Positions 15,876 through 35,449 of a stretch of DNA of 64,000 nt are shown here, piece by piece (position 1 is the first letter of the stretch; every line of letters begins with the position of its first letter). The notes beneath the pieces are model-generated. The model made no database searches, was not told where the DNA came from, and saw nothing but the letters and a program-made list of their open reading frames with translations. Origin of the DNA: Cryomorphaceae bacterium (GTDB lineage Bacteria > Bacteroidota > Bacteroidia > Flavobacteriales > ECT2AJA-044); assembly GCA_017798125.1 (NCBI GenBank), contig CP059070.1, positions 2,170,001 to 2,234,000 of the forward strand, given 5' to 3'. The translations under genes were made by a program, and so were the position numbers.

Positions 15876-18800
15876 AGAAGAGCTTAATTCTGTTGCTGAT
15901 TCTTTGGGCCAGTTCTGCTTGGGCGCAGCGCCTACGTGAATTCAGTGAGGATGGCCCTCAGTTCTTAGAGCAGTTGGGCACCTATATGCTGGAAGGGCAA
16001 AATGGGGAAACAACTGTAGCCACGATGGAGCTCTTCGCGGCTTATTGGAATTCGGGTGTTTATACCCCAGAAGAAGAGACGGCCATTATTGAGACCGCCA
16101 ATCGGATGCTCAAGAAGCGGGTACGCTCCTATCCTGGCTTCATTGATTATGTGGAGTCTTTGATCGCCGTTGTTGATCTTGGCAATGACCCCGTGACGAC
16201 GACCTGGTTTCAAGCGACCTCGGATATCGTTTCCGCGCAGAGTGGACGCCGTATTGATCAGTTCATGCTTCGATCGAAGGAATTGCTCCGAGATAGTGTG
16301 CTTTTTCGCTCTCAAGCCTTGGAATGGAAGTTTTTGGGCGACTTGCGGGCCTTTGTTCAAAGCGAGCCCGGTGTCATCGAAACAGAGGAAGGCGCCTTGG
16401 TTTGCTATGCCAAGGGAGACTCAAGTGTTGTCTTCAACACGGTCATTCGCTTTGACCTTATGGAAGACCGACTCACGGGAGTTGGCGGTGAAGTGTTTTG
16501 GACCCGTGCAGGAATCAGCGCGGACAGCCTACTGGCTCAGCTCGACGAATACGAGATACAAACGACCAAAACGAAGTGGTCCGCTGATTCGGTAACCCTG
16601 TACAGTCAATTCTATATTGCCGAACCAATGCTGGGCTCCTTTGAGGAGAATATTCTTGCATCGGCCCGTGAGGGCAATTACCGCTTCCCCATCTTCAATA
16701 GCTACAATAAGGAGTTTCAGATCCCAGACATTGTGGAAGGCGTATACTACGAAGGTGGATTTAGCGTGGAAGGCGATCGATTCATCGGATATGGAACTGA
16801 TGACCGAAAAGCGCTCATGCTTTTTGACTTTGAGGATGAAGCTCGGGTGAAGGCTTTGAGCAATCGATTTGTCCTACGGGACGATGAGATTCTAGGAGGG
16901 GACTGTCGTCTTACCATTCTGATTGAAGAGGATTCGATGTTTCACCCGAAGATTCAACTCCGATTCTTCAAAGAGGACCGTGTGCTTTCCCTTTTCCGGG
17001 AAGATGAGGGGCTAGCGCAACGCCCCTACTCCAACTCCTACCACAAAGTAGAGATGTACTTTGATCGTTTGGAATGGGACATGGACGAGCCCGTGATGAA
17101 GCTCTCCAACCTCCAGGCGGGTGAAGTAAATCCCGTGGTATTGGAGTCCGTTAACTTTTATCGAGACGAACGCTTTGATCAGCTCCAGGGAATGGATGAT
17201 TCCAATGTTCTGTACGTGTTAAAACGCATGTGGGAACGGGCGGATCATCAAGATGAGTTCTGGATTGAGGAAATTGCACAGTACCTTCAAATGGAGGAGT
17301 ATCAGTGTAAGCTCCTGATGATGGACATGACCATTATGGGTTTTGTCAACTACGATCTAGAGAAAGGTCGTGTGAAGTTTGAGCAGAAGATGTTTGACTA
17401 CATCAACGCTCGAGGAGGATTTATCGACTACGACATCATTCGCTTTATCTCCATGGCCGAGCAGCAAAATGGGCGTCTCAATCTTTTGAATCAAGATTTG
17501 GAATTGTACGGTGTGCGCCCCATTCTATTGAGTGATTCTCAGAAAGTAGTCCTCTTCCCTGCCGGCGGTCAAGTGGTGCTGAAAGAGAATCGCGATTTCA
17601 ATTTTGCGGGGGTCATTCAAGCGGGAAGATTCGATTTCATGGGGCGAGACTTCTTTTTTGAGTATCAGAATTTCCGGGTCAACATGAATGTGATTGACTC
17701 CATGAAGTTCTTGGTTCCCTCTTTTGATGCGGATGAATACGGTCGTCGTGAGCTGGTACCTATTCGGAATAAGCTGCAAAACATGACGGGCGAGCTCTTT
17801 ATTGACCGACCGAACAACAAGTCGAGCAGAGAGCGCTACCCGGAGTATCCGATCTTCAGATCTGGGAACGATAGCTATGTGTACTGGGATGATCGACGGA
17901 TCTACAATGGTGTATATGATCGATCAAAAGTCTATTTCCATGTAGAACCCTTTGAAATTGACAGTCTGGATACGTTCGAGACCGAAGGCTTGGCCTTTAA
18001 CGGGCAGTTCTATTCCGGTGATATCTTCCCGATGTTTGAGGAAGATCTCAAGGTTATGCGGGATTATTCGCTAGGATTCGTCACCACAACACCTGGAGGA
18101 GGATATCCGGCTTATGGAGGAAAAGGACGCTATCGGGATACCATCAAGGTGAGCAATGCTGGAATTGAAGGTAAAGGTGAACTGGATTACATCACCAGCA
18201 CGACCTATACTCGGAATTCTCTATTCTTCTTGGATTCGATGAACGCCGTCGCGGATACCTTCTTGTTGCGTCCTCAATTGTCGGGAACGGAATACCCTCC
18301 TGCTCGAGCGCTCGTGGCCTCTGTTCACTGGGAGCCGTATAACGATGTGATGTTCATCAACAATACCAAGGAAAATCCCTTTGATATCTTTGATGTGCAC
18401 GCGAGCCATCGTGGTTTCTTGGCTTTGCGCCCTAGTGGTCTTGAAGGGGGCGGCCGAACGGACTTTGAGAATGCCCAAACCAACGCTTCACTTTATCGCT
18501 TTGATCATCACCGCATTTACAGTGACCGCCTGAATTTCAAAGTGCGTTTGACGGCTGAGAGCCCCTGGGCCTTTGGCCTGGACAACGCACGCGGTGACAT
18601 TGATTTTGCCCAACGCCGAGGTGAATTCACTCTTCGTGATCCTGCCTTTGCCCTGCACGTGATTGAAAATCAGTATGATGTGTATATGGACCACGCCGTG
18701 TGGGATATGGATGCTAAGACTTTTGATTTGAACCAAATGACATCAGGCCGTCCCGCGTATATGGTTTCGACTCGTGAGGCTCAGGACAGCTTGAACTATA

Positions 18801-20281
18801 CGGCAGAAGCCGCTAAGTATTATATGGCCGATACCCTCCTTGAGGGTTATGGGGTTGAAAAAATGGCGGTGGCCGATGCCTGGATTTATCCGGACTCAGG
18901 TTTTGTAGCCATACGAGACAATGCCAAAATGGATCGATTGGATAATTCTCGTGTTGAAGTGCTGAGGGATGACCCCTACCATCAATTCTATGAAGCCAAT
19001 GTTCGTGTTCGAGGACGTCTGGATTATAGAGGTCGTTCGAAAATCGACTATCTAGATCGCTTTTCTGAGGCCTTCCCTATCCCGATCGACACCATGTGGG
19101 TCGATACGGCCTATCAGACCAACGCACACGGTGTTGTTCCGGCGGATCAGGAATTCTACCTCTCTCCTTTCTTCAGCTTTGAGGGCGAGGTCTTTATCTT
19201 GGGGAATGACCCGAACTACATCTTTGACGGATATACGGAAATCCAACATGCCTGTGAGGCTATTCTAACCGACAAAATTCCTTTCCGGTCCACCATTGAT
19301 CCAGAGCGGATTGCGGTTGATCTGAGCCGATTGGAGGCAGATCGTGCACGGAACCAGTTATTCTCGGGACTCTTCTATAATGCAGATCCCGTGGATATGA
19401 CCAGTAATTTTCTCTCCAAGAAGGCAAATGCCTATTCTGAGCCCAATTTCTCAAGTACCGGTTGGCTGATTTATGATGAGGGTAGCAATGAATATCGCAT
19501 TGCGAGTGAGGAGAAACTGGAAGATTCGGACCACCCGTCCCAACTCATGGCCTTCAACAACAAAACGTGTGAAGTTCGCGGAACAGGAACCTTTGATCTC
19601 GATAATGACCTGAGCGGTGTTGCCCTCAACACCTGGGGTGCGTATTCTCATGACCTTACTCGCGATACCATTGAAATGGACCTGTTTATGGGTATTGGAT
19701 TCTTCTTTACTGAGGAAGCCCTCGAACTCATGGCCGCGAACATCAACAATGACAATATTCTCAAAGGGATTGATCTAGATCGCGACGTCTATCGTGAGGC
19801 ATTGATTGCCCTACTGGGTAAAGAAGCGGCCTTAGTCTACATGGAGGAGATTCGCACCTATGGTTCCGTAGAGAAGCTGCCAAAAGAGCTCAGAACGATG
19901 ACGCTCGTGCTCACGGACGTGGAATGGGCTTGGAACGATTACACCAGCAGCTACCTTACCATAGGTGACATTGGTATCGGGAGCATTGGGCCCATTCAGG
20001 TCAATAAAAAGGTTCGAGGAAAGATTGAACTGGTGAGGAAACGGCGCCAAGACGAGTTCTACATGTACTTTGAGTTGGATCGACGCAATTGGTACTATTT
20101 CTCCCTTCGCAGGAACATAATGCAGTGCTTGTCTTCTGATGAAGCCTTTAATGATGTGATTAAGGACTTAAGCCTGAACAAGCGACAAGCGAAGCTGGAC
20201 GATGGAACGTATTTCCAATACACTATCTCAACTCGACGTCGTGTAGATCAGTGGCTTTCTCGATTCGAAGAATTCTATTAG
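15872..20281 (+). CDS. 1469-residue exported protein of unknown function
   Basis: Signal peptide MKKSLILLLILWASSAWAQ, then a short helical segment (to about residue 170) and a long beta-rich body with many aromatic and acidic residues and repeated short strands (for example YYEGGFSVEGDRFIGYG, AFNGQFYSGDIFPMFEEDL). Residues about 455-540 differ: a helical stretch with IEEIAQYLQMEEYQCKLLMMDMTI that resembles a winged-helix or small helical domain. No T9SS tail, TonB box or lipobox is recognised. It is coupled to prmA by a four-base overlap. It could be a periplasmic or cell-surface scaffold, but I do not recognise the family by name. Confidence 0.7.
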   Translation: MKKSLILLLILWASSAWAQRLREFSEDGPQFLEQLGTYMLEGQNGETTVATMELFAAYWNSGVYTPEEETAIIETANRMLKKRVRSYPGFIDYVESLIAVVDLGNDPVTTTWFQATSDIVSAQSGRRIDQFMLRSKELLRDSVLFRSQALEWKFLGDLRAFVQSEPGVIETEEGALVCYAKGDSSVVFNTVIRFDLMEDRLTGVGGEVFWTRAGISADSLLAQLDEYEIQTTKTKWSADSVTLYSQFYIAEPMLGSFEENILASAREGNYRFPIFNSYNKEFQIPDIVEGVYYEGGFSVEGDRFIGYGTDDRKALMLFDFEDEARVKALSNRFVLRDDEILGGDCRLTILIEEDSMFHPKIQLRFFKEDRVLSLFREDEGLAQRPYSNSYHKVEMYFDRLEWDMDEPVMKLSNLQAGEVNPVVLESVNFYRDERFDQLQGMDDSNVLYVLKRMWERADHQDEFWIEEIAQYLQMEEYQCKLLMMDMTIMGFVNYDLEKGRVKFEQKMFDYINARGGFIDYDIIRFISMAEQQNGRLNLLNQDLELYGVRPILLSDSQKVVLFPAGGQVVLKENRDFNFAGVIQAGRFDFMGRDFFFEYQNFRVNMNVIDSMKFLVPSFDADEYGRRELVPIRNKLQNMTGELFIDRPNNKSSRERYPEYPIFRSGNDSYVYWDDRRIYNGVYDRSKVYFHVEPFEIDSLDTFETEGLAFNGQFYSGDIFPMFEEDLKVMRDYSLGFVTTTPGGGYPAYGGKGRYRDTIKVSNAGIEGKGELDYITSTTYTRNSLFFLDSMNAVADTFLLRPQLSGTEYPPARALVASVHWEPYNDVMFINNTKENPFDIFDVHASHRGFLALRPSGLEGGGRTDFENAQTNASLYRFDHHRIYSDRLNFKVRLTAESPWAFGLDNARGDIDFAQRRGEFTLRDPAFALHVIENQYDVYMDHAVWDMDAKTFDLNQMTSGRPAYMVSTREAQDSLNYTAEAAKYYMADTLLEGYGVEKMAVADAWIYPDSGFVAIRDNAKMDRLDNSRVEVLRDDPYHQFYEANVRVRGRLDYRGRSKIDYLDRFSEAFPIPIDTMWVDTAYQTNAHGVVPADQEFYLSPFFSFEGEVFILGNDPNYIFDGYTEIQHACEAILTDKIPFRSTIDPERIAVDLSRLEADRARNQLFSGLFYNADPVDMTSNFLSKKANAYSEPNFSSTGWLIYDEGSNEYRIASEEKLEDSDHPSQLMAFNNKTCEVRGTGTFDLDNDLSGVALNTWGAYSHDLTRDTIEMDLFMGIGFFFTEEALELMAANINNDNILKGIDLDRDVYREALIALLGKEAALVYMEEIRTYGSVEKLPKELRTMTLVLTDVEWAWNDYTSSYLTIGDIGIGSIGPIQVNKKVRGKIELVRKRRQDEFYMYFELDRRNWYYFSLRRNIMQCLSSDEAFNDVIKDLSLNKRQAKLDDGTYFQYTISTRRRVDQWLSRFEEFY
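16660..16675 (+). repeat. dispersed palindrome, copy 5
   Basis: ATC-GGC-CCG-TG-AGG-GCA; outermost pair missing. Within the 1469-residue gene. Confidence 0.55.
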
Positions 20282-20290
20282 AGCTTTTCG

Positions 20291-20298
20291 TACTTTTG
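20291..20298 (+). promoter_or_regulatory. -7 promoter box upstream of clpS
   Basis: TACTTTTG fits TAnnTTTG exactly, 18 bases before the clpS ATG. No strong -33 partner is seen. Confidence 0.55.
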
Positions 20299-20315
20299 CA
20301 CTGTAAATCAAGACA

Positions 20316-20585
20316 ATGATAGAAGAAGTACTGGAAATAGTTGAGCAAAAAGAGAAGCTGGTTCGCAATCGAGAGCTTGTCTTGCACAATGATGAAGTGA
20401 ACACCTTTGATCACGTCATCGATTGCTTGATCCGAATTTGTGGTCATGATTTGCTCCAAGCAGAGCAATGTACCATGATTGTCCACTACAATGGAAAGTG
20501 CACAGTTAAGACGGCTGAATTTGACAAGCTCAAGCCTATGTGGTCTGCACTTGTAGAAGAAGGTTTGAACGCAGAGATTCAATAG
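20316..20585 (+). CDS. clpS: ATP-dependent Clp protease adaptor ClpS
   Basis: 89 residues. ClpS binds N-degron substrates and delivers them to ClpAP-type proteases. The core LHNDEVNTFDHVIDCLIRICGHDLLQAEQCTMIVHYNG reads as ClpS: the LxNDxxNTxxxV motif, then helix, then the HxxG-like segment. The N-terminal extension is short. It has its own -7 box and is closed by a strong terminator shared with the convergent tRNA gene. No clpA or clpC gene is in the window. Confidence 0.9.
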   Translation: MIEEVLEIVEQKEKLVRNRELVLHNDEVNTFDHVIDCLIRICGHDLLQAEQCTMIVHYNGKCTVKTAEFDKLKPMWSALVEEGLNAEIQ

Positions 20586-20608
20586 TAAGAACAAGACTTT
20601 TTAAATAG

Positions 20609-20650
20609 GAAAAGCCGCTGTATCCATTGATAACAGCGGCTTTTCTTTTC
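20609..20650 (+). terminator. bidirectional terminator between clpS and tRNA-Arg
   Basis: AAAAGCCGCTGT (20610-20621) pairs with ACAGCGGCTTTT (20633-20644), a perfect 12-bp stem with a T-rich tail on the plus strand and a T-rich tail on the minus strand as well. It starts four bases beyond the tRNA 3' end, so it should terminate both transcripts. Confidence 0.88.
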
Positions 20651-20652
20651 CG

Positions 20653-20726
20653 TGACCCCGCAGGGATTCGAACCCCGAACCTCCTGATCCGTAGTCAGGT
20701 GCTCTATCCAGTTAAGCTACGGAGCC
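20653..20726 (-). tRNA. tRNA-Arg(ACG)
   Basis: A 74-nt cloverleaf on the minus strand. The acceptor stem GGCTCCG pairs with CGGGGTC (with G-U pairs) and the discriminator is A. The anticodon loop CTACGGA, closed by CCTGA/TCAGG, gives anticodon ACG. The T arm has GGTTCGAATCC. CCA is not encoded. A promoter box CAAAGATA (TATCTTTG on the minus strand) lies 11 bases upstream. Confidence 0.96.
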
Positions 20727-20736
20727 ATTGGGACGG

Positions 20737-20765
20737 CAAAGATAAAACAATCCACCAAAAAACAA
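20737..20765 (-). promoter_or_regulatory. promoter of tRNA-Arg
   Basis: Minus-strand -7 box TATCTTTG (20737-20744) with a TTG at 20763-20765, an 18-base spacer. This fits the Bacteroidota TTTG / TAnnTTTG promoter. Confidence 0.6.
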
Positions 20766-20823
20766 GACCTAAGAAAGAAAAGATGGATTGTGAATAACTA
20801 ATAGCCTCTATTCCAAGTAAATA

Positions 20824-20855
20824 ATTGGAATTACAAAATCAATCTCCTATTTTTG
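20824..20855 (+). promoter_or_regulatory. promoter of a small RNA in the AT-rich island
   Basis: ATTG at 20824-20827, a 20-base spacer, then TATTTTTG at 20848-20855, a perfect Bacteroidota promoter layout. Transcription would start near 20861 and run to the terminator at 21028-21074. No long ORF follows within that distance. Confidence 0.6.
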
Positions 20856-20958
20856 TGAGGATTATAAAGCAAAAAAGGCCTCACCTTTTTGGGTGAAACC
20901 AATTTGCAGGTTTAATCAAGATTTCTAAATCCTACGCTCTGTGTAGAATTAGGAGGTC

Positions 20959-21009
20959 ATGAACACAATGAGTGAGCGTTTAACCTACGCAACGCTCAAA
21001 GGTGTGTAG
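20959..21009 (+). CDS. possible 16-residue peptide within the small RNA
   Basis: ATG at 20959 opens MNTMSERLTYATLKGV followed by TAG. AGGAGG sits at 20951-20956, an unusually strong ribosome-binding sequence for this phylum but only two bases from the ATG. The peptide may be spurious, since the same bases form the GAGCGTT/AACGCTC hairpin. Listed because of the AGGAGG and its position between promoter and terminator. Confidence 0.2.
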   Translation: MNTMSERLTYATLKGV

Positions 21010-21027
21010 CATAATTAGGAAAAAGCT

Positions 21028-21074
21028 ACGGTCATGAAACATTGTTTACGGCAGTTTCGTGGCCGTGGTTTTTT
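21028..21074 (+). terminator. strong intrinsic terminator ending the small RNA
   Basis: ACGGTCATGAAAC (21028-21040) pairs with GTTTCGTGGCCGT (21054-21066) over 13 pairs with two G-U, a 13-nt loop, then six T at 21069-21074. Confidence 0.8.
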
Positions 21075-21452
21075 ATATACCCCTGTGACTTATTAGAATA
21101 CGAAGCCTTCCATTTCTTTAGGATTGAGAGGGTTACTCTTAATTACTGCTCGTCTGGTAAAACGAATCCGAGATAGGCAAGAATAATTTGGATAAGAGAT
21201 GTCATGATATTTGTTTTTGCGATTAAACCTGAGACAAATATCGAACAAGGTACAGTTACCCAACAGGAGAAAATATTCCAATTTGGACAACGCTAGTCAA
21301 GTAGCGCTCCTTCAAAGAACTATTACGGACTTTTTCAGTACGTTTACGAACAGCCTTAAAAAACGAATCCTTCCATCTTCATTTTCTTACACTACAAACA
21401 TCGTTAGTCCAAAGTACTAGGGAAACGATACTTTTTCATATTTTGGACAACG
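21075..21452. other. AT-rich non-coding stretch upstream of the first helical-repeat gene
   Basis: No convincing gene. It holds a perfect 8-bp inverted repeat (GATATTTG at 21206-21213, CAAATATC at 21234-21241), a possible 20-residue hydrophobic peptide on the minus strand (21143-21205), and two copies of TTTGGACAACG (21283-21293 and 21442-21452). The second copy directly precedes the ATG at 21453. Confidence 0.5.
21143..21205 (-). CDS. possible 20-residue hydrophobic peptide
   Basis: Minus-strand ATG at 21205 opens MTSLIQIILAYLGFVLPDEQ followed by TAA: one hydrophobic helix and a charged tail, the look of a small membrane peptide. Upstream on the minus strand is GATATTTG (at 21234-21241), one base off the -7 consensus, with TTG 18 bases before it. 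It overlaps a 65-codon ORF in another frame that looks non-coding. Very short, so it may be chance. Confidence 0.25.
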   Translation of the reverse strand: MTSLIQIILAYLGFVLPDEQ

Positions 21453-22865
21453 ATGGACAATCTTGAAAGGTGGAATCGCCTTAACCGATTCAACGCTAAA
21501 CTCTCTGATGCTGAAAAAGAAGTTGTAAGGCTTTATATGTCAGTGTTTTACGACAAGTATTCAAATGGTCCTTCCGTATACTCTCGACTATTTGAAGCTC
21601 TAGAGAGTAATATTGAATTCGCGAATTTACAATCAGAATTTTCAGACGATGCACTCAGAAAGAACCTAGATCGATTGGAGGAAAAGGTTCTTGAAGGTAT
21701 GAGCCTTGATGTCAATACTTCTAGACGAACCAGTTTTGATCAGGTAGATAGAGATTTCCTGCGCGTACTTACTTTGCTCAAGCATTATAAGGTTTTGGCG
21801 CTTTCAGGAAATGCGGTTGATACTATCCCTATACTTAGAAGACTCCTCAAGATTGCGAAGAGAATTGAGCAGTTTGATTTTGCCTTATTTGCATTATATC
21901 AGCTTGCAGATATATCCATTATGCGCGGTATGACACTTAAGTCCTTGGATGTTTTTCATCAAATAGAAAAATATGAGCGATTCAGAAGTTTATATGGAAA
22001 GGCCTTAACAACAAAACATCGCCTGTTCAAGATCTATACCATTGATAGCCCAAGTAAAAAACAAAAAGACTGGCTAGATTCATTGAATCAGGATCTAGAT
22101 GCTGTTACCACTGATGATGCCCCACCCTCAGCACTTAGAAACGCTTACTATGGGAAGCTTCTTTACTATGATAAGCTTAAAGACTACAAAAGCTGTCTTG
22201 AGATATGTGAATCTCTCGAAGTCTTGGTTAATGACAATTACGCTATTAGAAAAGAACGTGAGGTCACTACTATTCGAATTAATCGAGCACTATTTGGCAT
22301 CTTGGGTTATCAGTTCCAAGAATCACTCGAATTGATTGAGGATATTCTAAAGGCAGATCGATTAACTGACATCAATAAGTCCTTTCTATTTGCGCAGAGG
22401 TCCAGAATTCAGTTAATCCTTGGCGAATATGAGAACTGCCTGGAAGAATTACTTGGTTATATTCATTCGGATTGGTTCTCTAATACTTATGCGCCTCAAG
22501 TTCATTTTACCGCTGCAATGTGCCATTTCAAACTTGAACAATATCAAGATGCAATGAGGGTAATATCCGATCAGCCGGAGTTAAGAAAAGATAAATCCGG
22601 TTGGAACTTTTATTCTAGGGTTCTTCTAGTTCTCGGTTATTACCTATCTGGAAATGAGGATAGCGCAATCAACGAGTTGGAGAACTTCACGAGATACCTT
22701 CACGGTAAGGACTTAAATGAAAGGCAAAAGTTCCAGCGAAAAGTCTTGTCGCACTTGATTGAGGGTAAAGAGAAGGGAGATCTAGAATTCAATGGGAAAT
22801 TGGATTGGGATCCAACTTCTTCGGAGATTATTGATTTCAATGAATACATAGTTGGCCACCTGTAG
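21453..22865 (+). CDS. helical-repeat (TPR-like) protein, first of a paralogous pair
   Basis: 470 residues, no signal peptide, almost entirely helical. The N-terminus (LSDAEKEVVRLYMSVF...YSRLFEALES) resembles a Bacteroidota family of about 500-residue TPR-like proteins that begin with an SEKRYFKL-type segment followed by YxxLFxAI. Degenerate TPR helices follow, for example IAKRIEQFDFALFALYQLADISIMRG and RSRIQLILGEYENCLEELLGYI. Codon use is distinctly AT-richer than in flanking genes. The downstream gene (23031-24503) keeps the same order of segments (LLKIAKRIEQFDFALFALYQL here, ALRLAVKWGQFDLVSNILRQL there), so they are paralogues. Probably cytoplasmic protein or peptide binding; true role unknown. 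Confidence 0.75.
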   Translation: MDNLERWNRLNRFNAKLSDAEKEVVRLYMSVFYDKYSNGPSVYSRLFEALESNIEFANLQSEFSDDALRKNLDRLEEKVLEGMSLDVNTSRRTSFDQVDRDFLRVLTLLKHYKVLALSGNAVDTIPILRRLLKIAKRIEQFDFALFALYQLADISIMRGMTLKSLDVFHQIEKYERFRSLYGKALTTKHRLFKIYTIDSPSKKQKDWLDSLNQDLDAVTTDDAPPSALRNAYYGKLLYYDKLKDYKSCLEICESLEVLVNDNYAIRKEREVTTIRINRALFGILGYQFQESLELIEDILKADRLTDINKSFLFAQRSRIQLILGEYENCLEELLGYIHSDWFSNTYAPQVHFTAAMCHFKLEQYQDAMRVISDQPELRKDKSGWNFYSRVLLVLGYYLSGNEDSAINELENFTRYLHGKDLNERQKFQRKVLSHLIEGKEKGDLEFNGKLDWDPTSSEIIDFNEYIVGHL

Positions 22866-23030
22866 GTCGTTTTATCGATAGTAGAGGACATGAGTTGATT
22901 TTGGACTAAATAAGTCAAAAATCGAATTCTAATTATAGGATATTTTCTATTCATTTCATTCAAGGTGACACTTCAACTTTCAGTGCAGAACAATTCCTGT
23001 TTATACGACTCATTCAAAATCTCTTGCCAT

Positions 23031-24503
23031 ATGATCTTCCCAATTGAAATAAAGGAGATAATCGAGTGCAGTACTCCAAGAGAGCTCGGATACATAGAAC
23101 ATTTTCTACATTCCTTTAATTCGAAAATTGGCTCCACGAATAAATACATTGAGGATCTCTCTTGGATAGAGGATTCGAGTATTCAAGAAATTGAGTCCAT
23201 TGGAGGAACAAGAAGAAAAAGCTTTGAAAGGCTCTTTCTAAAATGCTACGAAGTACTAGCGTTTGGTTTTAATGTAACCAACCCCGATTCATTCAGGCGA
23301 TATGAAAAAGGAAAAATATTGATATATAAGTACTTACTGTTTTCTCAAGTTGCTTTGGCAAAAGAGAAACGAAGTCATTACCAGTACTTCCAAAAAAGGG
23401 CGTTGAGATTAGCAGTTAAATGGGGGCAATTTGATTTAGTATCAAATATTTTACGCCAGTTACATAAAGACTCGAAGTACCACGGTGAAGTAAAAAAGGC
23501 CCACTACTATAAAAGAAGGCTAGATCAGAACTCTGAACTAGAGAGAGGATACGGCACCATTGTCGAGCTCCTTAGTCGAGCAAACCTTCCTGACTTTTCT
23601 GGAATTAAGAAAGAGTCTGAGAAAGTTGAAATACTTCGTATGTACAACAGTCCAGTAGGACATGTAAGACTCAGAAGGGTCGTACTGTATGGCGTTATCA
23701 TGTTGTACTCGAAAGAAATTCACAAGAGTCTCGATCATTTGAAATATTCAAGTGAGGCAATTATTGAGTTGATCAATATCATTAAATCAAACCCTGAATA
23801 CTTCAATGAACGAGAGCTACCAATGGCCCTGAACAACAATCATATATTGAGTGCTTACAAGGGGGCTCTAGACCAGTCTTTCACAGGCTTCCAAGAGGAC
23901 ATTTCAAAACTACTGAAGTACAGGGCCGTGTATAGGCTTTATAGAATGAATGTCATGGTCGTGTCATTTTACCATGGAGAGTCTCCAATATTTTTGAATG
24001 ATGAAGACTGTAATTACAAGAGTGAAGAGAAGCTTATTTTGGCCGCATCTACTTTGGTAGTCGGTGAAACGAGTTTATCAGAATTAAACAGAATTCAAAT
24101 AGAAAGGAATGAAGAGGAAATCGATTTTTTCGTTAGAGTATACCAAATCCTCTGCTTTATAGGAAAGGATGACCTTGATCAGGCTGATCGTCTAATTTTC
24201 TCACTAAGGAAGTCCCTCTTGCTTACTAAGCCATTCTATGAAGAGTTTCATTCTATTATTCTTCAACTACTTTGGGAATGGTCAAATAAAGGCTTTCTAG
24301 GAGAAATAGATGACCTCTCCCCTGATCTATTTCAAGCCTTAAAGGAGCATTATGAAACAACTTGGAATCCCTTCTCCCCTGACCTCATTCCTCTTCATTT
24401 ATGGCGCAAAAAAGAAGGCATCCCGAATTACAGGGATGCCTATGCTCATTTGTTCGCTTGCAAACGGGAACGAGCCCGTAAGCAAGGAATTCTCTTTAAT
24501 TAG
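23031..24503 (+). CDS. helical-repeat (TPR-like) protein, second of the pair
   Basis: 490 residues from the ATG at 23031 (MIFPIEIKEIIECSTPRELG). A GTG at 22965 would add 22 residues with no homology to the first copy, so I prefer the ATG. Same architecture as its neighbour: EYIxxFLxSF-like start, YEVLAFG segment, ALRLAVKWGQFDL, and charged helices. AT-rich like its neighbour. The final 30 codons run over a terminator hairpin of the convergent minus-strand gene, and the stop codons of the two genes overlap. Function unknown. Confidence 0.72.
   Translation: MIFPIEIKEIIECSTPRELGYIEHFLHSFNSKIGSTNKYIEDLSWIEDSSIQEIESIGGTRRKSFERLFLKCYEVLAFGFNVTNPDSFRRYEKGKILIYKYLLFSQVALAKEKRSHYQYFQKRALRLAVKWGQFDLVSNILRQLHKDSKYHGEVKKAHYYKRRLDQNSELERGYGTIVELLSRANLPDFSGIKKESEKVEILRMYNSPVGHVRLRRVVLYGVIMLYSKEIHKSLDHLKYSSEAIIELINIIKSNPEYFNERELPMALNNNHILSAYKGALDQSFTGFQEDISKLLKYRAVYRLYRMNVMVVSFYHGESPIFLNDEDCNYKSEEKLILAASTLVVGETSLSELNRIQIERNEEEIDFFVRVYQILCFIGKDDLDQADRLIFSLRKSLLLTKPFYEEFHSIILQLLWEWSNKGFLGEIDDLSPDLFQALKEHYETTWNPFSPDLIPLHLWRKKEGIPNYRDAYAHLFACKRERARKQGILFN
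24408..24440 (-). terminator. terminator of the LVIVD/T9SS gene, nested in the helical-repeat gene
   Basis: On the minus strand GGCATCCC and GGGATGCC pair perfectly over 8 bp with an 8-nt loop, then TTCTTTTTTG. It is 60 bases past the stop of the minus-strand gene and inside the last codons of the plus-strand gene. A second hairpin (CTTGC/GCAAG and ACGGG/CCCGT, 24457-24486) lies between. Confidence 0.8.
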
Positions 24504-26881
24504 AGCTTAACCCAGCGATGTACTTCTCCATTTTCAGAACGGATGAAGTATACACCAGCTTCATATTCACTTACATTCAATTTTACGTGCGTTTCAGTGG
24601 CCTCCATTGAAATGCTCTGGATGAGTCGGCCCTGAACATCAACAATGCTCAAAATGGCTGAATTGCCATCAACAGAACGCTCAACGTTTAATTGATCTGC
24701 TGCGGGATTAGGATAGACAGACCACATGCTGAATTCATTCTCGCCAATACCTATGGAAGAAGCAGCGCTATCCACTACTTCAAATTGGTCGATACCTGCT
24801 TCTACCAAGTGACCTCCGTTACCGGCCAAGTCCGCCACATATGCACGGAACTGCACGCTGCTTAGGTTGTTGGTATAGTCTAAGATGCGGTAGCTCGATT
24901 GGATCCATTGAGCTTGTGGGGAAGACTGATCAATTCGATCAATTTCATAAGTAGCCGAACCATCTGTCAAGTACAGAATCAACGTGTCGTTTGGATTACC
25001 TGATCCACCTTCATTAGCAAACCAATGGAATACGCTTAACCAAGGATCGGTATATGCATTCAAGTTCATAGAAGGTGAACGAAGTGTTGTGAATCCATCA
25101 TCTACATCATCACCTCCTGCTCCACCGCTGGCGTCGTTACCCGTAACATATGCTTGGTCAAGGCAATCACCTTGAACATCCTGATCCGGTGCAAAGGGTC
25201 CGCCGTTAAATACAGTTCCAGCAGGCTCACCTCGCTCCCAGCGTCCAGTAGAGGCTGTGCTCAGTTCGGTCCAGCCGAAGTCCATAGAGAAATCATCGTA
25301 ATAGCCTGTTTCCAAATCAATGGTGATTGCAGAAGTATTGGCGTCAACGACCACTTGAGAGCAATCGGTTTGATATCCCCAAGCTCCTGCGGTCACCTGA
25401 TAAGTTCCGTAGAACACTGGAGAGAAAGTCACCTGACCATTTGCGTCAGTCGTAGAAGAATAGGTGTTGAAACCGTCCGTCATAACTACAGTGATCCCAG
25501 ACAATGAAGTGCCGTTCGAATCAACGACAGAACCGTCTATACTTGTGCTGCCAAGAGGATTCAAAGCAACATCTTGTGTTACTAAAGTTCCGTTGGTCAA
25601 AGTTGTAGAAAGGGTATCTGCCGTATATCCAGGTGCAGAATATACCACGTCAAAAGTTCCAGGTGTCGCTGATCCAGTCGCGTAGAATCCACTGAGATCC
25701 GTTGCTTTTGAAATATTCGTGGTCAGCAGTTGGATAGTAGCTGTGGCAATAGGCGCTGAAGTTGTAGCATCCGTCACTGTACCTTCAAGGTAGCAAGCCT
25801 GAGTTGGGGTATACCCGATGATAAAAAGGCCTTGCTCCATATCAGATACGTAGATGTTTCCGCTTGGCGCAAAAGGATATGCGCCCCATGCTCCGTTAAA
25901 TCCGCTTCCTGAAAGTGGCGAAGTATCGTATTGACCGGTACGGATCACGTTATAAGGATAAGTGACATCGTGCACTAGAATACCACTGCGGTACCAGCTG
26001 GTATAGATGTACTGACCTTTAACGTGGGTGTTGTGCGGAATAACCTGATTGTCATTCTCGGGTTGCACACGATCAACTTCGGTAATGTTGCTCAAGTTGG
26101 TCACGTCGTAAGAACCTACATAAGCACCAGAAACCTCGTCTGTTGTGAATACATGCGTACCATCTTGGCTGATCCAGGCATTGTGGGTAAATACATCAGG
26201 CGTTGAGGCTGAACCCATATTGGGTCCAATTGAGGAGTGGTTGCTCACGTCAATAGCTACGAGCTCTCCTTGATAAATAGCTCCTCCCCATAAGGTATCG
26301 CCACGAGCCATACCATCGTGCAAGTAATACTCATCGTAAATACCGACTACAGGTGGCGCCGTATCGTTCACGGTTGGATCCAAGAGCAATGCTCCACCCA
26401 CACCGATGTTTGCTCCAAAGAGGTAAATAATCCCATTCTCATCAATGTAGATGTTGTGGGCACGCGTGTAGTTCTCGTTATTATACGTAAAGAAGTAGTT
26501 CCAATAATCCGGATTGGGATTCGTAGCGATATCGCTCAAATCCACGATCAACAGACCGTCACTTGGATTACCTGGAGAACAGTTCGGCGAGTCATGTGTC
26601 ACATACGCTTTGTCACCCCAAACTTTGACATCACGCCATGTACTACACACACCCCCGATGTAGGCCTTTTCAACCGGAGTTGCAGGCACGGTAACATCGA
26701 CGATACTGAATCCATTTTGAGTACCGACAAGGGCGTACTCATTCCCATTTCCATCCGCGTATCCCCATATATCATTGAGAATTTCGGTGTACGTTAACTG
26801 ACCTAGTGAGGTCATGTTTAAGTTCTGTCCCTGTGCAAGTGTCGCCACGCTCAGGAAACAAACAAATAGCAATCGCTTCAT
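24500..26881 (-). CDS. secreted choice-of-anchor B / LVIVD-repeat protein with T9SS tail
   Basis: 793 residues from the ATG at 26881 (MKRLLFVCFLSVATLAQGQ, a signal peptide); an upstream in-frame start would add 18 residues before it. The N-terminal half has LVIVD-like beta-propeller repeats (FSIVDVTVPATPVEKAYIGG, LLIVDLSDIATNPNP, VAIDVSNHSSIG). Two carboxypeptidase-regulatory-like domains follow (LEGTVTDATTSAPIATATIQ; IDGSVVDSNGTSLSGITVV), then a jelly-roll segment. The C-terminus (VYPNPAADQLNVER ... GVYFIRSENG) is a type A T9SS sorting signal. Surface or secreted; role unknown. A perfect -7 box is 22 bases upstream. Confidence 0.87.
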   Translation of the reverse strand: MKRLLFVCFLSVATLAQGQNLNMTSLGQLTYTEILNDIWGYADGNGNEYALVGTQNGFSIVDVTVPATPVEKAYIGGVCSTWRDVKVWGDKAYVTHDSPNCSPGNPSDGLLIVDLSDIATNPNPDYWNYFFTYNNENYTRAHNIYIDENGIIYLFGANIGVGGALLLDPTVNDTAPPVVGIYDEYYLHDGMARGDTLWGGAIYQGELVAIDVSNHSSIGPNMGSASTPDVFTHNAWISQDGTHVFTTDEVSGAYVGSYDVTNLSNITEVDRVQPENDNQVIPHNTHVKGQYIYTSWYRSGILVHDVTYPYNVIRTGQYDTSPLSGSGFNGAWGAYPFAPSGNIYVSDMEQGLFIIGYTPTQACYLEGTVTDATTSAPIATATIQLLTTNISKATDLSGFYATGSATPGTFDVVYSAPGYTADTLSTTLTNGTLVTQDVALNPLGSTSIDGSVVDSNGTSLSGITVVMTDGFNTYSSTTDANGQVTFSPVFYGTYQVTAGAWGYQTDCSQVVVDANTSAITIDLETGYYDDFSMDFGWTELSTASTGRWERGEPAGTVFNGGPFAPDQDVQGDCLDQAYVTGNDASGGAGGDDVDDGFTTLRSPSMNLNAYTDPWLSVFHWFANEGGSGNPNDTLILYLTDGSATYEIDRIDQSSPQAQWIQSSYRILDYTNNLSSVQFRAYVADLAGNGGHLVEAGIDQFEVVDSAASSIGIGENEFSMWSVYPNPAADQLNVERSVDGNSAILSIVDVQGRLIQSISMEATETHVKLNVSEYEAGVYFIRSENGEVHRWVKL

Positions 26882-26902
26882 ATTGAGTAGATAAAAGAGT
26901 CT

Positions 26903-26910
26903 CAAAGATA
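26903..26910 (-). promoter_or_regulatory. -7 promoter box for the LVIVD-repeat gene
   Basis: Minus-strand TATCTTTG, an exact TAnnTTTG, 22 bases before the ATG at 26881 and just past the parC stop. A TTG lies about 22 bases further upstream. Confidence 0.55.
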
Positions 26911-26921
26911 ACAAACTGACC

Positions 26922-29579
26922 TTAATCCCATTCAAGGGTTATTTGCCCGTCGTCATCCGCAGACATGTCTTCATTATTAGTAGACGTAACATCTTCCTTA
27001 GACGTTAGGTTCTGGCCCTCTCGGGCCGATGATTCAGGCGCTTCTTCTTCCACCACCTCTGGTTTAGGAGGATCCTTTTCGATCGGTTCTAATAAGCTAA
27101 TACTGCGCACTTTCAACTTCGTCAGTTGATTACCAAGCGCCTTCAGTCCTTTAACGGAAATGAACTCACTTAAATTGACCGTTTCATTCGGTTTGCGCTC
27201 CTTATTGGGCAGCTTGGTGTATTCGATTTCAATTTGTGGGATGTAATCAGTGGTCACCAATTCCAACAACGTGCCTTCAGTCTCTGGTAAAAACTCCACT
27301 TTCTTGGTCTTGTCGACCAACTCGGGAATAAAGCGCTTAACGTAATACAGGCTCTTTTCTCCTTCGAAGTAGACGACGCTCAGAGGTTTCTCCGGATAGT
27401 GTTTTTCCAACAAGACCATGTCATCCTCAAAATGAGTGGTCAATTCAAAGCCGAGCAAGCGATACGTACCGTTCTGGCTGACTTCTAGAATACGGTCATC
27501 TCCGCTAAACTCACCCAAGAGCTCTCCCCTGCCTTCCGTATTCAACTTGCGAACGGTATCGTCAAACCAAATCTTTTGCGGTTTTAAGGTGCTCACTCCT
27601 TCTTCACGCAGCTCTATACGCTTGATCGGATTCTTGGAAACCAAGTTCCCCTTCACCCCTCTTCCCTTAATCAAGAGATCAGCGAAATTCAGCTCAAAGT
27701 TGGTTTTCTTCAGGCGCTTAAGCTGGCGCAAATAGACCATCACCATCTCAGCCTCTCCGTTCGGATTAGCCGTAAAGTACTCTATATAAGAGCCCTTGGT
27801 TCCTGCTGTTAAATCGTACTCCCGATCACGAGTGATACTGGTCACGCTGAAACGCTTGACGTAATAGGCTCCTTTGGGCCCATCTCGATAGATCATATTG
27901 TACACCGTCCGGGCGTCTTTCTTCTTCCAGACGGCCACGTGCAAGATGTCTTTTCCAACAAAGGTCTTCTTGTCTACGCGAGTCACCATCATCTTTCCGT
28001 CCTTCCGGAAGACGATAATGTCATCAATGTCTGAGCATTCGGTCACAAACTCATCCCGTCGCAAAGAGGTTCCAATAAACCCTTCTTCACGGTTCACATA
28101 CAAGCGCTCGTTGGCAATAGCCACCTTGGTCGCAACGATATCGGCGAATACACGGATCTCTGTTTTCCGCTCCTTACCCTCCTTGTACTTCGCCTTGATG
28201 TTCTTGAAATAATCAATGGCAAAATCAACCAGGTTATCCAAATTGTGCTTGACTTGTTCAATCTTGCCTTCAAGGGCCTCAATTTGTTGTTGGGCTTTAT
28301 CCAAGTCGAATTTTGAAATACGCTTGATTCGAATCTCGGTCAAACGAACAATGTCTTCCTCGGTTACCGCACGCTTCAAGTGCTTGGTGTGTGGCTTGAG
28401 TCCTTTATCAATGGCCTTGATGACCCCTTCCCAGGTTTCCTCTTCCTCAATATCCCGGTAGATTCGATTCTCAATAAAGATGCGCTCCAAATTGGCAAAG
28501 TGCCATTGCTCCTCGAGTTCGTCGAGCTCTACCTCCAATTCACGCTTGAGAATATCGAGGGTGTGTTCTGTACTCAAGCGAATCAAATCGCTTACGCCAG
28601 CAAAGAAGGGACGATCGTTTTCAATGACGCAGCACAGAGGGCTAATGGATACCTCACAATCCGTAAAGGCATATAGGGCATCTATAGTCTTGTCCGGAGA
28701 TAAATTGGACGGTATATGAATAAGGATTTCTACGTGCTCTGCAGTATTGTCCTCAATGCGCTTGATTTTAATCTTACCTCGATCATTCGCCTTAAGAACA
28801 GAGTCGATCAATGAAGTCGTGGTGGTCCCAAAGGGAATCTCACTAATCTTCAGCAGGTTCTTGTCTTCTACGCTGATTCGCGCCCGGACCTTGATTCGTG
28901 ATCCGCGCTTTCCATCGTCATACTGACTGAAATCGGCGATTCCGCCTGTCGGGAAATCCGGTAAGAGTTTTGGTTTCTTTCCGCGGAGCACATCCACACT
29001 GGCATCGATTAACTCGATGAAGTTGTGGGGCATAATTTTCGTCGACAATCCAACGGCTATACCCTCTACCCCCTGGGCTAATAGCAACGGGAACTTTACC
29101 GGCAGAAAGACGGGTTCCTTTCCTCGACCGTCGTAGGACGCTTGCCAAGTGGTCACCTTCGGTGAAAAGACTACATCCAGAGCAAACTTGGACAATCGCG
29201 CCTCAATGTATCGGGGAGCTGCAGCCCGATCACCAGTATAAATGTTACCCCAGTTTCCTTGGCAGTCAATCAAGAGGTCTTTCTGACCCAATTGGACCAA
29301 GGCATCAGCAATAGAAGCATCTCCATGTGGATGATACTTCATCGTGTGTCCGATCAGGTTCGCCACCTTGTGGTAGCGTCCATCTTCCATTTCCCGCATA
29401 CTGTGCAACAAACGTCGCTGCACGGGTTTTAGCCCATCTTCAAGCGCAGGAACAGCCCGTTCCAAGATTACATAAGATGCGTAATCCAGAAACCAGTCCT
29501 TATACATGCCCGAAACCTTCGTGCTGGTCGCGGCGCCTTCTCCTCCTACTTCTTCGGGTTCAAGCTCTTCTGCCATCAA
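26922..29579 (-). CDS. parC: DNA topoisomerase IV subunit A
   Basis: 885 residues; with ParE it decatenates daughter chromosomes. The breakage-reunion domain is clear: YASYVILERAVPALEDGLKPVQRRLLH, KYHPHGD, GNWGNIYTGDRAAAPRYIEARLS with the catalytic Tyr near residue 124. A long coiled coil is near 400-460 and a beta-pinwheel-like C-terminal domain follows. The last 70 residues are acidic and low-complexity. The order parE, membrane protein, parC, with four-base overlaps, shows one operon. It could be called gyrase A by a weak search, but the paired ParE-like neighbour and the short C-terminal domain favour ParC. Confidence 0.9.
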   Translation of the reverse strand: MMAEELEPEEVGGEGAATSTKVSGMYKDWFLDYASYVILERAVPALEDGLKPVQRRLLHSMREMEDGRYHKVANLIGHTMKYHPHGDASIADALVQLGQKDLLIDCQGNWGNIYTGDRAAAPRYIEARLSKFALDVVFSPKVTTWQASYDGRGKEPVFLPVKFPLLLAQGVEGIAVGLSTKIMPHNFIELIDASVDVLRGKKPKLLPDFPTGGIADFSQYDDGKRGSRIKVRARISVEDKNLLKISEIPFGTTTTSLIDSVLKANDRGKIKIKRIEDNTAEHVEILIHIPSNLSPDKTIDALYAFTDCEVSISPLCCVIENDRPFFAGVSDLIRLSTEHTLDILKRELEVELDELEEQWHFANLERIFIENRIYRDIEEEETWEGVIKAIDKGLKPHTKHLKRAVTEEDIVRLTEIRIKRISKFDLDKAQQQIEALEGKIEQVKHNLDNLVDFAIDYFKNIKAKYKEGKERKTEIRVFADIVATKVAIANERLYVNREEGFIGTSLRRDEFVTECSDIDDIIVFRKDGKMMVTRVDKKTFVGKDILHVAVWKKKDARTVYNMIYRDGPKGAYYVKRFSVTSITRDREYDLTAGTKGSYIEYFTANPNGEAEMVMVYLRQLKRLKKTNFELNFADLLIKGRGVKGNLVSKNPIKRIELREEGVSTLKPQKIWFDDTVRKLNTEGRGELLGEFSGDDRILEVSQNGTYRLLGFELTTHFEDDMVLLEKHYPEKPLSVVYFEGEKSLYYVKRFIPELVDKTKKVEFLPETEGTLLELVTTDYIPQIEIEYTKLPNKERKPNETVNLSEFISVKGLKALGNQLTKLKVRSISLLEPIEKDPPKPEVVEEEAPESSAREGQNLTSKEDVTSTNNEDMSADDDGQITLEWD
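27014..27030 (-). repeat. dispersed palindrome, copy 6
   Basis: Minus-strand ATC-GGC-CCG-AG-AGG-GCC; arms pair fully. In the acidic low-complexity tail of parC. Confidence 0.7.
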
Positions 29580-30055
29580 TCTTTTTCTTTCCCGGCTCTA
29601 TTTTGTCTCTTGATCTTGTCCAAGGACTTCTTCAAGTGCCGCTGCTTACTGCGTGACAAAAACGTGATGTTAAAGTGACGTACGGTAACGCCCTTCTTAC
29701 TTTTTATCCTAATGGTGACGGTCCGACGAACAATTCCTCTGATCTTGTAATCAATGAGTTTTCGCTTGGGAAACTCAGCGGTCTTCGTTAGGCTAGGGAA
29801 AATCTTCTCGCCTAGGAAATATCGAGACTTGAATATCAACACTTCACCGTCACTGTCGTACTCGAAATAGGGTTTTCCCAGCAAAAACAAAAGAACCACA
29901 ACACCCAAACTCCCAATGCTCAGCAAGTGGCTTTGGAAGTACTCGGTAATGGTACCGTCTACACCACTCACGAGCAAGTCAATGAGTATGCCCAAGGCCA
30001 AAATGGCGTAGAGCAGGACAAAGCGTTCCTTCAACTGTTCGTTGGTCAGTCTCAT
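29576..30055 (-). CDS. 159-residue membrane protein between parE and parC
   Basis: Two hydrophobic segments (about residues 12-32 and 44-61), then a basic C-terminal part rich in Lys/Arg ([33 protein letters not shown]). It overlaps parE by four bases and parC by four bases, so it is translated with the topoisomerase subunits. I do not recognise a named family. The basic tail could contact membrane lipids or nucleic acid, which is speculation. Confidence 0.75.
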
Positions 30056-31908
30056 GAGGCCTCTTCTTCAACCAGGTCTTTTTCGACCCGTAGATTTTCA
30101 ATAATAAATTCCTGACGCTGCGGTGTATTCTTACCCATGTAGAATTTGAGGAGGTCGTCAATGGTCGAATCCTTGCCGATCAAGACCGGGTCAAGGCGAA
30201 TATCCTTTCCGATGAAGTGCTTGAACTCATCAGGAGAAATCTCACCAAGCCCCTTAAATCGGGTGATTTCAATCTTACCCTTTAATTCATTCATCGCAGA
30301 TTGCTTCTCCCCTTCATCATAGCAGTAGATGGTCTTCTGCTTGTTCCGAACGCGGAATAACGGTGTCTGAAGGATATAAAGATGTCCTTCACGAATCAAC
30401 TCAGGGAAGAACTGCAAGAAGAAGGTGATCAGTAGAAGGCGTATGTGCATTCCATCTACATCGGCATCCGTCGCGATCACCACATTGTTGTAGCGCAAAC
30501 CTTCAAGGCCGTCCTCGATATTGAGTGCCGCCTGAAGAAGGTTGAATTCTTCATTTTCGTAGACCACTTTTTTGGTGAGTCCGTAGCTGTTGAGTGGTTT
30601 CCCTTTGAGACTGAAGACCGCCTGTGTCCGGACACTTCGCGCCTTTGTAATGGACCCAGAAGCAGAATCTCCCTCCGTAATGAACAGGGTTGTTTCTAAA
30701 CGATCATCGTTTTTCTGGTTGTCGTAATGGGATCGACAATCTCGCAGCTTTTTGTTGTGCAGATTTGATTTCTTCTGACGCTCACGAGCCAACTTCTTAA
30801 TTCCTTGAAGTTCCTTTCGCTCCCGCTCTGCTTGAAGAATTTGCTTCAACCAAATTTCAGCAACCTCTCCATTCTTGTGCAGATAGTTGTCGAGTTCGGT
30901 TTTAATAAAGTCATTGATAAAGGTCCTTACGGTAGGCCCATCGGGTCCCATGTCAGCAGATCCTAACTTGGTCTTGGTCTGACTTTCAAATACAGGCTCA
31001 ATGACCTTGATGCTCACCGCAGCAACGATTCCCTGACGGATATCCGCCGCTTCAAATCCTTTGTTGAAAAATTCACGAGCCGTTTTCACAATGGCTTCAC
31101 GGAAGGCCCCTTGATGCGTACCTCCTTGAGTGGTGTGTTGACCATTGACAAAACTGTAGTACTGCTCACCATACTGCTTACCACTCACGGTCATGGCCAC
31201 TTCAATGTCCTCGCCGCGCAAGTGAATGACAGGGAACAAGACTTCCCCGTCAAGGTTGTTTTCCAAGAGATCCTTCAGGCCATTCTCGGAATACATCTTC
31301 TCGCCGTTGTAGAGAATGGTTAGCCCTGGATTCAAATAGACGTAATTCCAGAGCATCTTCTCAACGTACTCTGTGCGGTAGGCGTAGTTTCCAAAGATCT
31401 CTGGATCTGGCACAAAGAACACCTTGGTTCCCTTGCGCAAAGAAGATTCTCCGATTGGATCATCTACCGTTAGGGCACCGCGTTCAAACTCTGCAATCTT
31501 GGTTTGGTTGTCCCGAACACTTTGGATGCGGAACTGCTCAGAAAGGGCATTAACCGCTTTGGTTCCTACCCCATTCAGTCCAACGGACTTCTTAAAAACC
31601 TTGGAATCGTACTTGGCTCCGGTATTGATCTTAGATACCACGTCAACGACCTTTCCCAATGGAACACCGCGACCGTAGTCCCGAATAGTTACCGTATTGT
31701 TCTTGATGGAAACCTCAATGGTTTTCCCATTGCCCATGACAAACTCATCGATCGAGTTGTCCAAGACTTCCTTCAGGAGAATATAGATACCGTCGTCGTG
31801 CGCAGATCCATCTCCTAACTTCCCAATGTACATCCCTGGACGCAGCCGGATATGCTCCTTCCAGTCGAGTGACCGGATGCTGTCCTCATTATACTGATTC
31901 TCCGCCAT
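30052..31908 (-). CDS. parE: DNA topoisomerase IV subunit B
   Basis: 618 residues; the ATPase and TOPRIM subunit. GHKL motifs are seen: [33 protein letters not shown]. The TOPRIM start is [11 protein letters not shown], with [12 protein letters not shown] further on. Length fits ParE rather than GyrB. First gene of the parE - membrane protein - parC operon. Confidence 0.93.
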
Positions 31909-31932
31909 ACGGAGTAAAAATAGAGAATTGGG

Positions 31933-31951
31933 AGCGCCTCAGCGGCGCGAT
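31933..31951 (-). repeat. dispersed palindrome, copy 7
   Basis: Minus-strand ATC-GCG-CCG-CTG-AGG-CGC; arms pair fully. In the spacer between parE and ychF. Identical over 19 bases to the copy at 40100. Confidence 0.75.
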
Positions 31952-31985
31952 GCAACCTGAGTTTTTAACAGGTTTTTCAAAACTC

Positions 31986-33080
31986 TTAGACGTTGAAGCG
32001 GAAGTGCATGACATCACCGTCTTGAACGACGTATTCCTTCCCTTCAATATGGATTTTTCCTGCCTCACGGCACGATGCCTCGCTTCCGTACTGCACATAA
32101 TCCTCGTAGTGAATCACTTCGGCCCGGATAAATCCCTTCTCAAAGTCCGTGTGGATAACCCCAGCAGATTGAGGAGCCGTTGCTCCGACAGGAATGGTCC
32201 AAGCGCGAACTTCCTTTTCTCCCGCTGTGAAATAGGTTTGGAGATGAAGCAAACGGTAAGCCGCACGAATCAGCTTATTCACGCCTGGCTCATCCAAGCC
32301 CAAATCATCCAAGAACATCTCGCGTTCTTCGAAGGTCTCTAATTCCGAGATGTCGGCTTCCGTTCCAGCGGCAATCACCAATACTTCGGCATTTTCTCCA
32401 GCTACCGCCTCACGAACCTTATCCACAAAGGCGTTGCCTTCTCGAATGGAATTTTCGTCGACATTGCAGACATACATAATCGGCTTATCGGTCAACAAGA
32501 ACATGTCATCGACGAATTCTTCTCTTTCGCTTTCGGTCAATTCCACGGCACGAGCACTGACGCCGCTCAGCAAGGAAGACTTTACCTTCTCCAAGACCCC
32601 CATCCCCTTGACGGCATTCTTGTCGCCGATCTTGACCAGCTTTTGGAGCTTGTCCATCTTCTTTTCGACGGTCTCCAAATCTTTCAACTGAAGCTCAATG
32701 TCAATGGTTTCTTTGTCGCGCACCGGATCAATGCTTCCGTCAACGTGTACAATGTTATCGTTGTCAAAGCATCGAAGAACATGAAGGATGGCATTGGTCT
32801 CGCGGATATTACCCAAGAATTGGTTTCCGAGTCCTTCCCCTTTTGAAGCTCCTTTAACGAGACCTGCGATGTCCACAATTTCTACGGTGGCCGGAACTAC
32901 ACGCTCTGGGTTTACTAGGCTCTCGAGTTTGGCGATGCGGTCATCGGGAACGTTGATAACACCGACGTTTGGTTCAATGGTACAGAAGGGATAGTTGGCC
33001 GATTGAGCCTTGGCATTGCTCAAACAATTAAAGAGTGTTGACTTCCCCACATTCGGTAACCCGACAATTCCACATTTCAT
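31986..33080 (-). CDS. ychF: redox-regulated ATPase YchF (Obg-like)
   Basis: 364 residues. P-loop GLPNVGKSTLFNCLSNAKAQ, DIAGLVKGASKGEGLGNQFL, and the C-terminal TGS-like domain ending EGKEYVVQDGDVMHFRFNV. These are YchF/OLA1 signatures; the protein binds ATP and ribosomes. Own promoter (minus-strand TATTTTTG at 33100-33107). Confidence 0.95.
   Translation of the reverse strand: MKCGIVGLPNVGKSTLFNCLSNAKAQSANYPFCTIEPNVGVINVPDDRIAKLESLVNPERVVPATVEIVDIAGLVKGASKGEGLGNQFLGNIRETNAILHVLRCFDNDNIVHVDGSIDPVRDKETIDIELQLKDLETVEKKMDKLQKLVKIGDKNAVKGMGVLEKVKSSLLSGVSARAVELTESEREEFVDDMFLLTDKPIMYVCNVDENSIREGNAFVDKVREAVAGENAEVLVIAAGTEADISELETFEEREMFLDDLGLDEPGVNKLIRAAYRLLHLQTYFTAGEKEVRAWTIPVGATAPQSAGVIHTDFEKGFIRAEVIHYEDYVQYGSEASCREAGKIHIEGKEYVVQDGDVMHFRFNV
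32061..32076 (-). repeat. dispersed palindrome, copy 8
   Basis: Minus-strand ATC-GTG-CCG-TG-AGG-CA; outermost pair missing. Near the 3' end of ychF. Confidence 0.5.
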
Positions 33081-33107: not shown

Positions 33108-33171
33108 GGAATTGCCGACATGTATTTATCAAAAGAAGTCAACATCACTTCCTCTTTACCAATGAATCAGA

Positions 33172-33179
33172 TAATTTTG
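33172..33179 (+). promoter_or_regulatory. -7 promoter box of the transketolase N-terminal gene
   Basis: TAATTTTG, an exact match, 16 bases before the ATG at 33195. A start this close means a very short leader. Confidence 0.6.
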
Positions 33180-33194
33180 CACAAAATTTTTTCC

Positions 33195-34043: not shown

Positions 34044-34046
34044 TTA

Positions 34047-35441: not shown

Positions 35442-35449
35442 CCCTACCC

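Follow-up and report, generated by a model that had tools for sequence, protein, structure and literature searches.

The locus described here lies in a window of 64,000 nucleotides taken from the single-contig, 2.84 Mb genome of a Cryomorphaceae bacterium. It was compared with G001, the only other genome available from the same genus, and from the same family, which we call the sister species. Two adjacent plus-strand genes, A and B, follow a tRNA gene, a structured RNA and a stretch that carries candidate micro-ORFs on the minus strand as well as a direct repeat. Positions are those of the window.

20316–20585, plus strand: ClpS-like protein (by sequence), a syntenic flank with 84% identity to the sister species
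20652–20726, minus strand: tRNA-Arg (ACG), syntenic in the sister species
20857–21076, plus strand: structured non-coding RNA of roughly 220 nt between tRNA-Arg and A, preceded by a TATTTTTG promoter-like box (about 20848) and closed by a strong intrinsic terminator
21093–21113, minus strand: candidate micro-ORF MEGFVF, copy 1; the single difference from the orthologue is at a third codon position
21143–21205, minus strand: candidate micro-ORF p20, MTSLIQIILAYLGFVLPDEQ (sister species: MQSLVQLIIAFFAGIDASFVFPDDQ); its start and stop align between the genomes
21281–21292, plus strand: direct repeat, copy 1, ATTTGGACAACG
21356–21376, minus strand: candidate micro-ORF MEGFVF, copy 2; the two differences from the orthologue are both at third codon positions
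21441–21452, plus strand: direct repeat, copy 2, TTTTGGACAACG, ending at the base that precedes the ATG of A
21453–22865, plus strand: gene A, 470 aa, predicted all-helical TPR-superhelix protein with the N-terminal helical domain of the SEKRYFKL family (ORF, orthologue, AlphaFold (AF2) model)
23031–24503, plus strand: gene B, 490 aa, paralogue of A with a conserved basic/aromatic C-terminal extension (ORF, orthologue, AF2 model)

A and B are distant, AT-rich paralogues

Both ORFs were confirmed at the lengths given in the original prediction. The ATG that yields 490 aa for B aligns with the start of its orthologue, and an alternative GTG at 22965 would yield 512 aa. The two proteins had been proposed to share their segment order while being strongly diverged. 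Direct comparison of A with B by BLASTP was not significant (E 0.37), and profile-profile comparison (hhalign), with each protein joined by its orthologue, gave a probability of 96.7 and an E value of 4.6e-10 over 416 columns. The alignment runs colinearly from the N- to the C-terminus and matches up both of the segments that the prediction had quoted. In addition, A matched the B protein of the sister species directly (E 1.1e-6; about 1e-8 by blastp). On the strength of this alignment and this match the claim of paralogy was right, and A and B are, by profile comparison, distant paralogues over their full length. The C-terminal extension of B is highly conserved and reads HLW[RK]KKEGIPNY[RK]DAYA.LFA.KR.

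The pair also proved AT-richer than the flanking genes, as had been noticed: the G+C content is 0.387 for A and 0.385 for B against 0.478 for the window, and GC3 is 0.37 and 0.40. All other large genes of the window have at least about 0.44 G+C, which makes A and B its most AT-rich genes. Neither protein has a recognised enzymatic domain, again as predicted; searches of Pfam and NCBIfam gave nothing above the curated cut-offs for A or B, all Pfam TPR hits in A being sub-threshold. The GC skew of the window switches sign near 24 kb (window 16001–32000), where plus-strand genes meet minus-strand genes just past B, and gene orientation may explain this switch.

The locus is syntenic in the sister species

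In the sister species a 1485-aa protein, ClpS, tRNA-Arg, the RNA, A and B follow each other in the same order as in the window. The orthologues are thus in place at the same locus, but their composition is not ordinary: the G+C content of A and B is 0.36 in the sister species as well, so their AT-richness is old. There the two genes overlap by 4 nt. The contig stops 57 nt past B, without the C-terminus of the window's next gene, and the comparison covers the left flank. A distant homologue in a genome from another family of the order (G283, family f12) sits between YchF-ParE and transketolase, and the same ParE-YchF-transketolase block starts two genes past B in the window. Identity between the two species is 40% for A and 37% for B, compared with 67–87% for the upstream neighbours, which argues that A and B are old and fast-evolving. 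We read the locus as one of vertical descent with fast divergence.

A and B belong to a wider Bacteroidota family

A profile of four sequences (A, B and their orthologues) found homologues of about 500 aa in family f8; in f12 its matches were C-terminal. Extended by the f8 sequences, it reached SEKRHFRLF- and EKRYFKL-type proteins across the phylum. When the A/B profile was compared with five SEKRYFKL-type proteins by hhalign, the E value was 1.6e-9, and 9.3e-15 with the f8 homologues included. The similarity is colinear over the full length, N-terminal domain included, and generic TPR proteins gave no score against the A/B profile in a rough control run end-to-end against truncated single sequences. 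The proposed resemblance to a TPR-like SEKRYFKL-type family was therefore well founded: as judged from these profiles, A and B are members of a family of helical-repeat proteins in Bacteroidota, about 500 aa long, to which the SEKRYFKL type also belongs.

The SEKRYFKL-type proteins combine an N-terminal helical domain with a TPR-like solenoid in about 500 aa. A and B stand apart from them by their strong divergence, by the loss of the SEKRYFKL string and by their tandem arrangement beside micro-ORFs. Neither A and B nor the SEKRYFKL-type solenoids are covered by a Pfam or NCBIfam model, and we know of no function for the latter. The profile with f8 found homologues in 39 of 392 sampled genomes, some of them being generic TPR proteins. 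Scans with A and with B of a genome contig set, apparently without this genus, found no relative, and a strict SEKRYFKL DNA pattern applied to 13 genomes gave unrelated matches. In the frames read, the N-terminal half of the f12 homologues (L042 5825–6373 and L043 4573–5379) does not appear open, and these genes are perhaps truncated or in decay; they retain the C-terminal motif W..[SR]TPE[LI]..F.

Predicted folds

The AF2 model of A (mean pLDDT 80.6) is all helical and forms a TPR superhelix. Its best match by VIA-align was the peptide sensor RapI (Z 16.9, 289 residues, 6.1 Å), closely followed by LGN, a protein of cell polarity (Z 15.5, 247 residues, 3.9 Å), with NprR (15.3), pLS20 Rap (14.1), kinesin light chain (about 14) and RapH and PlcR (Z 13.4) among the further matches. 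As RapI stands only about 1.4 Z above unrelated TPR proteins, these matches support a TPR superhelix for A and just hint at an affinity to peptide sensors. Residues 3–90, which the structure search hardly reached, are modelled as six helices. The model of B is weaker (mean pLDDT 70.7) and its structural matches are generic, peptide sensors not being favoured. Of the two helical-repeat proteins that had been proposed, A is modelled as a TPR superhelix, and B is less clear in this respect. Sequence searches of the PDB gave chance-level matches only, none to a solved structure below E 0.15, and Foldseek against viral models returned generic TPR proteins only. No HTH was identified.

A conserved RNA, candidate micro-ORFs and a repeat precede A

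A small RNA and short ORFs directly upstream of the pair had been part of the original prediction. The RNA is real: it has a mean column identity of 96% to the sister species, and nothing else between the genes here is as well conserved; its fold z is -6.2, and it carries its own terminator. The box upstream of it resembles the Bacteroidota -7 element. The terminator hairpin has a z of -7.2 on the plus strand against -1.6 on the minus strand; with a minus-strand value of only -1.6, a bidirectional terminator common to the RNA and the peptide strand is unsupported. Rfam gave no match for the RNA. The 6S model RF00013 did not match it either, a model that likewise gives no hit in any of five Bacteroidota genomes to which it was applied. 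A search of 246 genomes of the order found the RNA in this genus only. Its strong conservation suggests that it has a function apart from A and B.

Conserved short ORFs were indeed found, on the minus strand. Three ORFs with 6 or more codons on this strand keep their start and stop in alignment between the two species, compared with a mean of 0.22 in shuffled alignments (P 0.002), a null that disregards local conservation blocks. Of the 23 differences between the two genomes in these ORFs, 14 are in third codon positions (P 0.006), and the three predicted peptides have a common [GS]FV[LF] core. In the window the p20 ORF would encode 20 aa, as against 25 aa for its counterpart in the sister species; the two are set apart by a 15-nt in-frame indel, and their differences fall 6:3:11 on the three codon positions. 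The predicted peptide is hydrophobic, shows mostly conservative replacements, and ends in FV[LF]PD[DE]Q. A degenerate MEGFVF pattern gave 2+2 hits in the two genomes, at this locus only, and controls gave 0. The mutual similarity of the MEGFVF copies ends at the ATG and at the stop codon. In the window only, an in-frame ATG at 21382 would extend copy 2 to MKMEGFVF.

The 12-bp direct repeat (WTTTGGACAACG) occurs in exactly two copies per genome in both species, all of them at this locus. Before B, at 22900–22918, lies a third, degenerate copy of this TTTGGAC repeat, TTTGGACTAAATAAGTCAA; the sister species has no gap between A and B.

A peptide-sensing pair is tentatively favoured

We tentatively favour the reading of A and B as a peptide-sensing pair whose ligands would be the candidate micro-ORF peptides, a plain scaffold role being nearly as likely. 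The pair might work in an RRNPP-like manner, and membership of RRNPP is not claimed. Several observations led us to this reading: the peptide sensors RapI, NprR, pLS20 Rap, RapH and PlcR among the structural matches of A; micro-ORFs conserved above the null, with third-position bias and with MEGFVF unique to the locus; the fast divergence of A and B, as for receptors that track a changing ligand; a locus-specific repeat in front of A; and a size and adjacency that match the published RRNPP signature. The proposed function in peptide sensing thus gains some support from the conserved micro-ORFs.

We infer the following mechanism. A and B, old and vertically inherited paralogues that diverge fast, would act as receptors inside the cell, with a short linear peptide bound in the TPR groove. 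The ligand would be encoded adjacent to them on the opposite strand and translated there. One source would be p20, a hydrophobic precursor of 20–25 aa that would be exported and whose polar C-terminus (GFVLPDEQ or SFVFPDDQ) would be the active end; the two MEGFVF hexapeptides, carrying the same FV core as p20, would be ready-made. Peptide binding would alter what A and B bind, possibly their own promoter region with the 12-bp repeat before A, in which case the pair would be autoregulated.

Some observations weigh against peptide sensing. LGN and kinesin light chain match the model of A almost equally, and the model of B does not favour peptide sensors. The arrangement of A and B with micro-ORFs is carried by two genomes only, and three further homologous gene pairs from the wider family showed no micro-ORFs next to them. 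MEGFVF may instead represent a DNA motif; for its four variable sites all to fall in the codon-third phase has a chance probability of about 1 in 27. Sec signals usually carry a basic N-terminus, which p20 lacks, and no HTH was identified.

Linear-peptide sensing by TPR receptors has been described in Firmicutes, and to our knowledge no pair of this kind has been described outside that phylum. RRNPP systems are characterised by a TPR receptor of about 250–500 aa and a directly neighbouring secreted propeptide of 10–100 aa (PMC10075063), which is secreted by Sec or PptAB. A and B, with 470 and 490 aa, have the size of such receptors, and the predicted p20 ORF (20/25 aa), divergent from A, has that of the propeptide. 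As to peptide-binding TPRs, A is predicted to form a TPR superhelix with Pfam TPR hits below cut-off, and B is less clear. A and B resemble Rap, NprR, PlcR, PrgX and Rgg in receptor size, in the TPR fold predicted for A and in the adjacent small hydrophobic peptide ORF, with RapI as the best structural match of A. They differ in coming from another phylum, with no sequence homology found, and in having no identified HTH or Rap-type effector domain. Moreover, there are two putative receptors and three putative peptides here, and the hexapeptide ORFs have no leader. The full scheme, an RRNPP-type peptide-sensing system of Bacteroidota in which two SEKRYFKL solenoids serve as receptors for leaderless intracellular MEGFVF ligands and an exported precursor, is rather unlikely.

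The TPR domains of LGN/Pins and kinesin light chain likewise form superhelices that bind linear peptides, as the predicted fold of A might; these proteins are eukaryotic and have only the fold in common with A. The microcin C7 precursor gene mccA has 7 codons. It is comparable to the MEGFVF ORFs as a few-codon gene apparently kept by selection, whereas the MEGFVF ORFs have no adjacent modification enzyme and are unrelated to it in sequence. If translated, the six-codon MEGFVF genes would be among the smallest genes known. If peptide sensing by A and B is true, a counterpart in a diderm phylum would represent a new signalling route, and the locus offers a first testable idea on the ligand of a SEKRYFKL-type member.

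Alternative readings of the locus

A and B may instead be solenoids that serve as scaffolds or adaptors for protein partners; their rapid evolution would then reflect weak constraint, and the micro-ORFs and RNA would be unrelated neighbours or leader peptides. This possibility fits a family with a wide distribution in Bacteroidota, where most members are single genes in unremarkable parts of the chromosome, and the generic TPR proteins, whose match to A is nearly as good as that of peptide sensors. In addition, the homologue was adjacent to and divergent from a pseudopilin/GspE-type ATPase operon in all five f8 genomes read (L037–L041), which suggests a machine-linked role in f8. However, neither of the two genomes with A and B contains the pilus ATPase, so this operon link does not transfer and a pilus-operon role for A and B was discarded. 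The conservation of three aligned micro-ORFs on one strand, which is above the null, also speaks against this reading.

It is improbable that the micro-ORF strand and the RNA form a convergent type I toxin-antitoxin-like pair, separate from A and B, in which the RNA would silence a small hydrophobic peptide. Such a peptide does face a stable RNA with its own terminator, the two being convergent and the end of the RNA no more than about 20 nt away from the micro-ORF strand, but the RNA is much more conserved than the peptide strand. The poor terminator on the minus strand (z -1.6) leaves a 3' overlap unassured, and usual type I toxins are longer than peptides of 20 or 6 aa.

Least probable is a recently acquired accessory or defence island, an accessory island having been part of the original prediction: low G+C beside a tRNA gene, strong pairwise divergence and the lack of close orthologues found outside the genus would suit it, but it is largely refuted already by synteny, with locus, order and low G+C shared by the sister species. 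Also against it are the lack of a mobility gene or integrase among the neighbouring genes, the lack of relatives in the collections of phages, plasmids and viral contigs searched, and PADLOC, which gave no significant match for A or B and hence no support for defence. Relative to tRNA-Arg, A and B are on its 5' side, and no duplicate of the tRNA 3' end turned up within the window. Further along the window (33120–36400) each half of transketolase has a gene of its own, with a von Willebrand-like ORF in the middle; the f12 genome G283 (L043) shows this order too.
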